A stretch of DNA of 64,000 nt, from positions 1,178,001 to 1,242,000 of the forward strand of contig DASYBM010000004.1 of the NCBI GenBank assembly GCA_036500765.1, read 5' to 3'. Source of the stretch: Candidatus Sulfotelmatobacter sp. GTDB lineage: Bacteria; Acidobacteriota; Terriglobia; Terriglobales; Acidobacteriaceae. Positions 60,664 to 63,261 of the stretch are shown one piece after another. The notes beneath the pieces were generated by a model. It had not been told where the DNA came from and made no database searches. It worked only from the letters and a program-made list of their open reading frames with translations. The number at the start of each line of letters is the position of its first letter. Positions within the stretch are counted from its first letter, which is position 1. The position numbers and the translations under genes are program-made.

Positions 60664-61239
60664 CTAGTTTTTCATCTTCGGCCGCTGGCAGGCATCGACG
60701 ATCTTCGTAGGATCGATGGCGTCCTTGTCCACCTGCTCTTCCACAATCCTTCCATCTTTGCCGATCAGGAAGTTCACGCGGCGCGGGGCCTGATATTCGT
60801 CTTTGTAGATGCCGTACTCGCGGGTCACTTTTCCGCCCCAGTCGCTCAGCAGGGGGAACGTCACTCCAATGGAATCGGCGAAGGCTTTGTTCGAGAACCA
60901 GCTATCCATGCTCACACCCAGGACCTGGGTGTCGGCCGCTTCCAGCGTTTTCAGATTCTGCTGGAAAGCTTTCATTTGTGCGGTTCAACCTCCGGTGAAG
61001 GCGAACACGAAGAACGCGACTACGACATTTTTCTTGCCGCGGTAATCGCTCAACTTCACGTCTTTCCGGTCGGTGCCATCGAAATATTTCAGCGTGAAAT
61101 CCGGCGCCATGTCGCCGACTTTGGGCATGCTGGAAACCTCCTTGTGCGTCTGCGCGAACGTTGGGGCTGCGGCGGCTATTACCAGAAACAAGCCTATTGC
61201 CAGAACCCCCATGCGTCTGTTGTGCATTGAACTTGCCAT
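60664..61239 (-). CDS. Secreted peroxiredoxin (AhpC/TSA), predicted selenoprotein with UGA at the peroxidatic position
   Basis: 192 codons from ATG 61239 (AGAGGATTCA upstream). The signal peptide is about 1-30. The body has [20 protein letters not shown] and [13 protein letters not shown](UGA)-TAQMKAF. Peroxiredoxins carry T-x-x-C-T/P here, so the in-frame TGA (60985-60987, codon 85) stands exactly at the peroxidatic Cys. The frame continues unchanged for 106 codons of peroxiredoxin sequence ([37 protein letters not shown]) to TAG. A SECIS-like hairpin follows the UGA. Standard gene callers would give two fragments, 60985-61239 and 60664-60975. A pseudogene is the alternative. One Cys near the C-terminus (DACQRP) could resolve. 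Confidence 0.8.
60938..60969 (-). promoter_or_regulatory. Candidate bacterial SECIS element
   Basis: On the minus strand, 15 nt after the UGA, GCUUUCCAGC (60969-60960) pairs with GCUGGAAGC (60946-60938): 7 continuous bp, one bulged U, then 2 bp. The 13-nt loop begins AG, so a G lies in its first two positions. The loop begins 25 nt after UGA, inside the 16-37 nt range known for bacterial SECIS. All features are seen directly; SelB binding is inferred. Confidence 0.65.
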
Positions 61240-61434
61240 TGAATCCTCTCGCTAGGCCGAATATGCAGGGTAATGCCCAGCATACATTGTGCTGGCCTGC
61301 TTGGTAAACCGGGAAGTACCTAAATGTTACGATCTGGCGCATTGCCCAAACCACCGGCAAGACAGTACAGTTCTGTTCAGGGCGGTGGCGGCAAAATCAG
61401 AACCGCACCGTACGCCCGGTCCTTGAAAGACGGA

Positions 61435-63261
61435 ATGAGTATTTCCACTCTGAACGACATCTTCTTTGCCGCGGTCGGGCGCAATCTCGACCGCATGATG
61501 CTGTATCGCGACGCAGGAAAGTGGATTGCGATTTCCTCCCGCGAATTCAGCCGCAATGTGGCCGGAACCGCGCGCACGCTGCACTCCTGGGGCATTCAGG
61601 CACAAGATCGCGTCGCCATTCTCAGCGAGAATCGGCCGGAGTGGTCCACGGCCGACATGGCGTGCCTGCTGCTCGGCGCCGTAACCGTACCGCTCTACAC
61701 CACCCTCACCGCCGAGCAGACGGCCTTCATGCTGAACGATTCTGGCTGCCGCGCGATTTTTCTGTCGTCAGTGCAGCAACTGCAAAAGATCTTGTCGATT
61801 CTGCCGCTAACGCAAATCGAAAAAATAGTAGTCATGGATGCTGTTGACTTCGCCGGCGATCTCGCCCCCTTCGCCGGCAAGTGCGTCACCATGGGCCACA
61901 TGATGCTACAAGGGCCGGAGCACCTCGACTCCGCCATGGAGACCAAAGCGCGGTCGATCGCCCCCGATGACTTGGCCACGATTGTTTACACCTCGGGAAC
62001 CACGGGAGCATCGAAGGGCGCGATGCTGACGCACGGCAACATCTCGTCCAATATTCAATGCTCGCTGCTGGGCTTCGACATGCGGCCGGGGCTCGTGAGC
62101 ATCTCGTTTCTGCCGCTCTGCCACATCACCGCGCGCCACCTGGATTTCGCGCTCATCTCGCACGGGGTCACGCTGGCCTATTGCCCATTTCTGGACCAAC
62201 TCGCGACGAGCCTGCTTGAGGTGCAGCCGACGATTTTTGTGGCCGTGCCGCGAGTGTATGAAAAGATTTATGCGCAGGCGGAGTTGAAAGCCAAAGGCCT
62301 GCCCAAGCGAGCGATCTACGACTGGGCGCTCGGCGTCGGAAAAGACCACAAGCCCGAAATTCTCGAGGGACGCACTCCCGCCTCGCGCAGTTGGAAACTG
62401 GCCAACCGGATTGTGTTTTCTAAAATTCGCGAAGGCATGGGCGGGCGCGTCGAGACTTTTATTTCCGGCGGCGCGCCGCTGGGCCGCGAACTCGCTGAGT
62501 GGTATGCGAACGTCGGCATTCGCATTCACGAAGGCTACGGCCTTACCGAGACTTCACCCGTCATCGCGCTGAACACGCCAACCCATCACCGCCTCGGCAC
62601 CGTGGGAAAAACCATGCCGAATCTCGAAGTGCGTATCGCCGAGGACGGCGAAATCCTGGTGCGTGGCCCGTCGATTTTCAAAGGCTATTGGAATCGTCCG
62701 GAAGAATCGAAAGCCGCTTTCGTTGATGGCCAGGTAAACGATGGGCAAGTAAATGATGGCTGGTTCAAGACCGGCGACATCGGCAACATCGATGCCGATG
62801 GATATCTTTCTGTGACCGATCGCAAGAAAGACCTGATCAAAACCTCCGGCGGAAAATTTATCGCGCCGCAGCCAATCGAGAATTCCCTGAAGCTGAATCC
62901 TCTGGTGGGGGTGGCGGCGATTCTCGGCGACCGGCGAAAATTTCCCGCGGTGATGGTGTCTCCTAACTTCGCCGCGCTGGAAGAGTGGGCGCGGGAAAAT
63001 AATATTTCGTTCACGTCACGCCCCGACCTGATTGCCAAGCCGCAGGTGCAGGCGCTCTACGAAGGCATCGTCGAGAGCATTAACGGGAATCTGGCGCGCT
63101 TCGAAAAGCTGAAGCGCGTACTGTTGGTGGCGGACGAATTCACCGTTGACAACGGCGTGCTGACACCCACCATGAAACTAAAACGACGGGTAATCGAAGA
63201 GCGCTACAAGCGGCAGATCGACGAGATGTATACGGAGGCGGAGGCCAGTGCCGTCCGCTAG
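61435..63261 (+). CDS. Long-chain acyl-CoA synthetase (AMP-binding, FadD15-like)
   Basis: 608 aa from ATG 61435, with AAAGACGGA upstream; the frame is open to 61324. It activates fatty acids to acyl-AMP and then acyl-CoA. Motifs are VYTSGTTGASKGAMLTH (P-loop), GYGLTETSPV, GWFKTGDIGNIDADGYL and DRKKDLIKTSGGKFIAPQPI, with a C-terminal mobile domain. Near residue 430 a short duplication gives VDGQVNDGQVNDGW (62725-62761), slightly longer than usual. It is divergent from the peroxiredoxin gene. Confidence 0.92.
   Translation: MSISTLNDIFFAAVGRNLDRMMLYRDAGKWIAISSREFSRNVAGTARTLHSWGIQAQDRVAILSENRPEWSTADMACLLLGAVTVPLYTTLTAEQTAFMLNDSGCRAIFLSSVQQLQKILSILPLTQIEKIVVMDAVDFAGDLAPFAGKCVTMGHMMLQGPEHLDSAMETKARSIAPDDLATIVYTSGTTGASKGAMLTHGNISSNIQCSLLGFDMRPGLVSISFLPLCHITARHLDFALISHGVTLAYCPFLDQLATSLLEVQPTIFVAVPRVYEKIYAQAELKAKGLPKRAIYDWALGVGKDHKPEILEGRTPASRSWKLANRIVFSKIREGMGGRVETFISGGAPLGRELAEWYANVGIRIHEGYGLTETSPVIALNTPTHHRLGTVGKTMPNLEVRIAEDGEILVRGPSIFKGYWNRPEESKAAFVDGQVNDGQVNDGWFKTGDIGNIDADGYLSVTDRKKDLIKTSGGKFIAPQPIENSLKLNPLVGVAAILGDRRKFPAVMVSPNFAALEEWARENNISFTSRPDLIAKPQVQALYEGIVESINGNLARFEKLKRVLLVADEFTVDNGVLTPTMKLKRRVIEERYKRQIDEMYTEAEASAVR

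Follow-up and report, generated by a model that had tools for sequence, protein, structure and literature searches.

A 64,000-nucleotide stretch of Candidatus Sulfotelmatobacter sp. DNA (hereafter the window) very probably carries a working gene for an exported peroxiredoxin with selenocysteine (Sec) at its catalytic position, and the observation from which this reading started holds. On the minus strand, the reading frame starts with an ATG at 61239, closes with a TAG stop ending at 60664, and is interrupted only once, by a UGA at 60987–60985. Translated with TGA as U, it gives 191 residues with U at position 85 and 106 residues thereafter. An ordinary listing of open reading frames cuts this gene into two pieces of 84 and 103 residues. 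The product matches the AhpC-TSA domain of Pfam (PF00578; E 9e-35, 119.7 bits for a cut-off of 26) over residues 41-166, and its UGA, found within the motif AFTGGUT, falls at the peroxidatic Cys position of peroxiredoxins. The two central statements of the preliminary description, namely an in-frame UGA at the peroxidatic Cys in a FTGG-U-T motif and 106 codons of peroxiredoxin sequence past it, are thus borne out. The TxxU motif is present (T82-G-G-U85), the sequence from the Sec onwards reads UTAQMKAF, and the next Cys is encountered only at residue 184. The positions of the features discussed here are collected in the table.

Table. Features of the peroxiredoxin locus, numbered from the first letter of the window.
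Feature	Position	Strand	Remarks
Peroxiredoxin (AhpC/TSA) selenoprotein gene	60664..61239	minus (61239→60664)	191 codons, UGA read as Sec
In-frame UGA, predicted selenocysteine 85	60985..60987	minus	peroxidatic position (TGGU)
Cys184, only Cys downstream of U85	60688..60690	minus	conserved close to the C-terminal end; possible resolving Cys
Signal-peptide-like N-terminus, residues 1-29	61153..61239	minus	likely cut before Q30; from the sequence
SECIS-like hairpin	60938..60969	minus	5' arm 60969-60960, loop 60959-60947, 3' arm 60946-60938
AMP-binding/long-chain acyl-CoA synthetase-like gene	61324..63261	plus	divergent neighbour; named from sequence

The UGA is highly conserved among relatives of the gene. 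Scanning the named genomes yielded 22 loci, of which 21 come from close relatives and one from a distant relative in the Gemmatimonadota (L037). The named relatives are metagenome assemblies; the 21 close ones are labelled Acidobacteria or groups within, 11 of them as Candidatus Sulfotelmatobacter, with Terriglobales as NCBI lineage. TGA is found at the catalytic codon of all 20 readable orthologues, the sequence of the twenty-first (L035) starting past this codon, and the Gemmatimonadota relative carries Cys there. This agreement is in line with the earlier argument that a chance nonsense mutation would hardly hit exactly the catalytic codon. In a survey of the class, 344 of 399 genomes contain a match with E no higher than 1e-25. 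The best 150 matches comprise 139 with one TGA, one with a TGA and a TAG, and ten without TGA, in all of which the catalytic codon is TGC or TGT; class matches weaker than these best 150 may well be Cys proteins. The 41 class matches at E 2.8e-59 or better, from 41 genomes, all show TGA. At the level of the phylum, 396 genomes were surveyed and 58 have a match at E<=1e-38, with one TGA in each of the 59 matches listed. Fifty-three of these 59, from 52 genomes, bear the label 'same phylum'; 20 were fetched and the gene was located in 18, using a pattern that left both the catalytic codon and position -7 unconstrained (L138 and L144 gave no match). The catalytic codon is TGA in 18/18. The preliminary description had called for homologues to be aligned at this codon, and those fetched carry either UGA or Cys.

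More detailed comparisons were made with a set of 81 genes. It was drawn from the window and 85 loci (L016-L067 and L090-L122) with a pattern in which the catalytic codon had to be a stop or Cys and position -7 one of V, P, I, A, L and F. A gene was obtained from 84 of the 86 sources, and the resulting 85 genes reduce to 81 distinct ones, 70 Sec and 11 Cys genes, with the residue aligned at one position. L035 and L036 were left out of the folding, tree and export tests, the latter because its sequence ends soon after the codon, which is TGA.

The Sec pathway that the preliminary description had implied is indeed found when the genome is searched: SelA, a SelB C-terminal domain within a 667-residue frame, SelD (L012, C11:42967-43893), and a tRNA-Sec with anticodon UCA detected by ARAGORN. 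The selD gene has an in-frame UGA of its own (AAGUASK), and selenium supply would then itself depend on Sec decoding. The tRNA-Sec gene directly follows a gene for a Cys peroxiredoxin with the motif KDFTPVCT (L084: 8465-9292, about 9398). Two further genes of this genome are worth mentioning. L069 (C2:306125-306514) encodes a second Sec peroxiredoxin, Bcp/PrxQ-like by its TPGUT motif and with no evident export signal. L076 (C4:275175-275615) is a third PF00578 gene with an in-frame UGA, in the motif GHWUPYC, which resembles the UxxC group of Prx-like proteins. Elsewhere, one class genome presents Sec-peroxiredoxin genes in tandem (L102, at 154 and 769), the first with FTPTU and a start near or outside the edge of the piece, and downstream of the Gemmatimonadota Cys relative, from about position 3640 of L037, another peroxiredoxin gene seems to begin.

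Presence of the gene goes together with presence of selA, which was found in 291 of the same 399 class genomes (E 1e-40). In the window's family, the gene (E<=1e-58) occurs in 26 of 38 selA-positive genomes and in none of 71 selA-negative ones. These 109 genomes are the ones that could be placed from two listings, and the Fisher p of 3e-16 is to be read with the genomes not being independent; those without a peroxiredoxin match are listed in part, and the unlisted ones can only enlarge the cell with neither gene. The 12 selA-positive genomes of the family in which the gene is missing include one of the same genus, G054, without a close match. Outside the family, all 15 genomes with a match at E<=1e-58 have selA. 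Among the listed class matches, selA is present in 129 of the 133 genomes with a TGA match; at E<=1e-40 none was seen in the remaining four, G306, G336, G375 and G393, whose completeness is 65, 59, 91 and 94%, respectively. Gaps in draft genomes may be the cause. All ten genomes with a Cys match among those listed also have selA, so the presence of selA does not predict which residue is used, and the Cys forms are not merely the result of loss of the machinery.

The RNA that follows the UGA folds as had been described: a hairpin 15 nt downstream, with a 9-bp stem, one bulged U (60965), an energy of -12.0 kcal/mol, and a loop that begins with AG 25 nt from the UGA and counts 13 nt in the minimum-energy fold. 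The bacterial SECIS model, as described in PMC13188914, has an apical loop of 3-9 nt located 16-37 nt after the UGA, a G in the first two loop positions, a stem of 4-16 bp and a minimum free energy <= -7.5 kcal/mol (PMC13188914). The claim that the hairpin fits bacterial SECIS rules therefore stands for spacing, position of the G, stem and energy, but not for the size of the loop. The energy line does not discriminate, being passed by 70/70 Sec and 11/11 Cys genes. Taken alone, the window hairpin is not significant against dinucleotide shuffles (z -0.72; 43 of 200 fold at least as well), and its z against synonymous shuffles is -1.10. The proposal that this structure goes beyond chance thus fails for the window considered by itself, and holds for the family as a whole. 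When each gene was compared with 300 synonymous versions of its own coding sequence, the 70 distinct Sec genes had a mean z of -1.97, 62 of them below −1, versus a mean of -0.45, with three below −1, for the 11 Cys genes. A control region of these 70 Sec genes, 40 codons farther downstream, gave a mean of -0.19 (16/70 below −1). The Sec and Cys values differ with a Mann-Whitney p of 5.5e-5, only a guide as rows from related genes are not independent, and the 24 more distant Sec genes taken separately differ from the Cys genes with p 0.004. Family-wide, the structure past the UGA in Sec genes exceeds that of synonymous recodings. The Cys homologue L037 also folds well in this stretch (z -2.14).

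Near and more distant Sec genes were separated for these comparisons, 46 and 24 in the folding test, 53 (51 distinct) and 17 in the pairing test. An inner stem of four pairs is kept in all 51 distinct near sequences, where few changes are available to test pairing. The pair next to it is C-G or G-C in 41 of these 51, and the register of the outer stem differs by one base between near sequences. A G occupies one of the first two loop positions in 46/51 near sequences and, at the same place, in 1/17 distant ones. The register of the window stem is absent from the 17 more distant Sec genes, in all of which pair 24-44 fails; four of the five core pairs can be formed at this register in 4 of these 17 genes versus 7 of the 11 Cys genes. 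Any SECIS element in the distant Sec genes must therefore use other pairings.

Regarding localization, the precursor of the window protein would be cut after TFA at residue 29. The starts of the relatives align better with another in-frame ATG, located at residue 5. A signal-peptide-like start was recognized in 75 of the 81 family members, by a heuristic that asks only for a charged start and a hydrophobic stretch; the six failing it comprise four with no ATG in range and two with no charge before the hydrophobic stretch. Twin-arginine export is not claimed, as a loose Tat pattern fits only 2/81 starts. An exported Sec enzyme had been presented as notable for this lineage: by the heuristic, the signal-like start is common to the family, and other genomes carry the exported form as well. 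The genetic context is conserved among the named-genome loci. The window gene is flanked by the divergent synthetase-like gene, with a homologue in 18 of the 22 loci, and by a FecR-like gene, also named from its sequence, with a homologue in 11. With such neighbours, a selenium or redox operon was rejected, and no redox partner was seen adjacent to the gene in the window. A link to a defence system was likewise rejected, no PADLOC family matching at E<=0.01.

In the tree of the 81 proteins, Sec and Cys forms interleave. Well-supported branches impose all four of the changes required between the two residues, one of which rests on the long-branch pair L037/L121. Exactly one downstream Cys, near the C-terminus, is found in 69 of the 70 Sec forms and 10 of the 11 Cys forms, and one downstream Cys is also present in the 18 further genes from elsewhere in the phylum. 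In the window's group it lies in the motif IVDACxRPK. This pattern makes the C-terminal Cys a good candidate for the resolving residue. A second trait concerns position -7, counted back from the catalytic residue. The literature motif for Sec-peroxiredoxins is PxxxTxxU (PMC13188914), and the window protein departs from the full motif with V in place of the Pro. At this position the 70 Sec forms have Ile (35), Val (29), Pro (5) or Phe (1), the 11 Cys forms Pro (9) or Val (2), and the 18 further phylum Sec genes Val (15) or Pro (3). Since the C-terminal Cys and position -7 largely follow the tree, a coupling of Sec to the loss of the active-site Pro is only suggestive. It could mean that an exported Sec-peroxiredoxin line spanning the Acidobacteriota gave up this Pro, which other peroxiredoxins use, that Sec provides the reactivity otherwise conferred on Cys by the Pro pocket, and that the product protects the envelope of these soil bacteria as a Sec-Cys peroxidase in the periplasm. 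We offer this wider scenario tentatively, as one possibility with less than even chances.

The exported Sec protein could also work without a resolving partner within its own chain, as a one-Cys peroxidase using an external thiol or in thiol-disulfide exchange, Cys184 being then structural or regulatory. Its top structural match, AhpE of Mycobacterium tuberculosis, is titled a '1-Cys peroxiredoxin' in PDB entry 1xxu, and the model leaves room for such a function in its uncertain parts: residues 41–70 of the AlphaFold model have a pLDDT above 90, the active-site block has a mean of 67, the C-terminus 62 and 51, and both ends are poor. The retention of the C-terminal Cys in nearly every Sec and Cys form, as well as in the 18 further genes, speaks against it. 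So does the motif, TxxU as in Sec-peroxiredoxins and not the UxxC that PMC13188914 gives for Prx-like oxidoreductases. We consider this function possible but on balance rather improbable, and keep the Sec-Cys peroxidase as our working model.

Termination at the UGA might itself be functional, the main product being a short exported peptide of 84 residues and Sec read-through being minor or regulated by selenium. Sec recoding was indeed partial, 30-40%, in the reporter system of PMC4513850. The codons past the UGA nevertheless stay open and their residues are strongly conserved in the relatives, and the Cys relatives carry the whole frame, which makes a functional peptide of this kind very unlikely. 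Even less credible is a pseudogene, the UGA having arisen in a normal Cys peroxiredoxin by nonsense mutation or through a sequencing error: the weak signal of the window hairpin taken alone and the metagenomic origin of the named relatives would allow it, but the same UGA stands in every readable named orthologue and in the 18 genes drawn from elsewhere in the phylum, the downstream frame is open and conserved, and the genome has the Sec machinery. Genome-wide reassignment of UGA to a standard residue such as Trp, for which we found no support besides the in-frame UGA itself, is just as hard to maintain, as UGA terminates 9 of 31 long non-overlapping open reading frames of the window (from a mechanical list that may include spurious ones), the residue alternates with Cys in the genes examined, and tRNA-Sec and the SelB domain are present. 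Both were rejected.

For the exported Sec peroxiredoxin, the following sequence of events can be proposed. From the conservation and the machinery present in the genome, SelB and tRNA-Sec would decode the UGA at codon 85, aided by the RNA structure downstream. The precursor would then be exported by means of its N-terminal signal. In the periplasm, by analogy with the family, the Sec selenolate in its TxxU pocket would reduce H2O2 or organic hydroperoxides. The single conserved C-terminal Cys would resolve the selenenic acid so formed, giving a selenenylsulfide that some periplasmic dithiol protein would presumably reduce in turn. Sec insertion, export, peroxidase activity and the Sec-Cys cycle are all inferred. 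If this is correct, many members of a soil phylum depend on selenocysteine for an antioxidant of the envelope, and such genes get cut at the UGA under standard translation. The natural Sec and Cys forms, with four inferred switches and, partly linked to them, a change at the Pro position, would provide a ready test of the benefit of Sec.

Sec-peroxiredoxin is an accepted selenoprotein family (PMC13188914), counted in 78 organisms in 2016 (PMC5029168), and a Sec peroxiredoxin (PF00578/COG1225, TxxU) was reported from Eubacterium acidaminophilum in a 2001 paper. For the Acidobacteria, a count of 2006 gave four selenoproteins in three families (PMC1794560), and three known selenoprotein genes are given for Occallatibacter riparius of the Acidobacteriota (PMC12013277). 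A relative of the window gene may already be annotated among the latter. We found no earlier report of an exported Acidobacteriota Sec-peroxiredoxin among titles and beginnings of abstracts in the open literature.

Compared with other peroxiredoxins of known structure, the closest relative in the PDB by Foldseek is the AhpE mentioned above (4x0x, 1xxu; E 2.5e-11, 33% identity, TM 0.59 by query and 0.72 by target, rmsd 7.2), which is also among the best matches by sequence. AhpE has Cys instead of Sec and is titled a 1-Cys enzyme, whereas a second, C-terminal Cys is conserved in the window's protein family. By sequence profile, the best PDB matches are of the PrxQ/Bcp type (2ywn, E 5e-30, and the Bcp-like 3hjp, E 3e-25). 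The resolving Cys of Bcp lies about five residues after the catalytic Cys. The window protein has no Cys at this distance, its only downstream Cys being near the C-terminus. With the selenoproteins among the Prx-like thiol:disulfide oxidoreductases it shares PF00578 and Sec, but the motif is UxxC in these and UTAQ in the window. The known Sec peroxiredoxins with TxxU have in common with it the AhpC/TSA domain, the peroxidatic Sec, the TxxU motif itself and the existence of Cys homologues. The window protein differs from them by its signal-peptide-like start, by V at the Pro position and by its single C-terminal Cys, and it scores 85.9 bits, below the 270-bit cut-off, against the NCBIfam PrxU equivalog NF040737. 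It is thus a variant of the known Sec-peroxiredoxin family, with a distribution wider than the single sequence showed.
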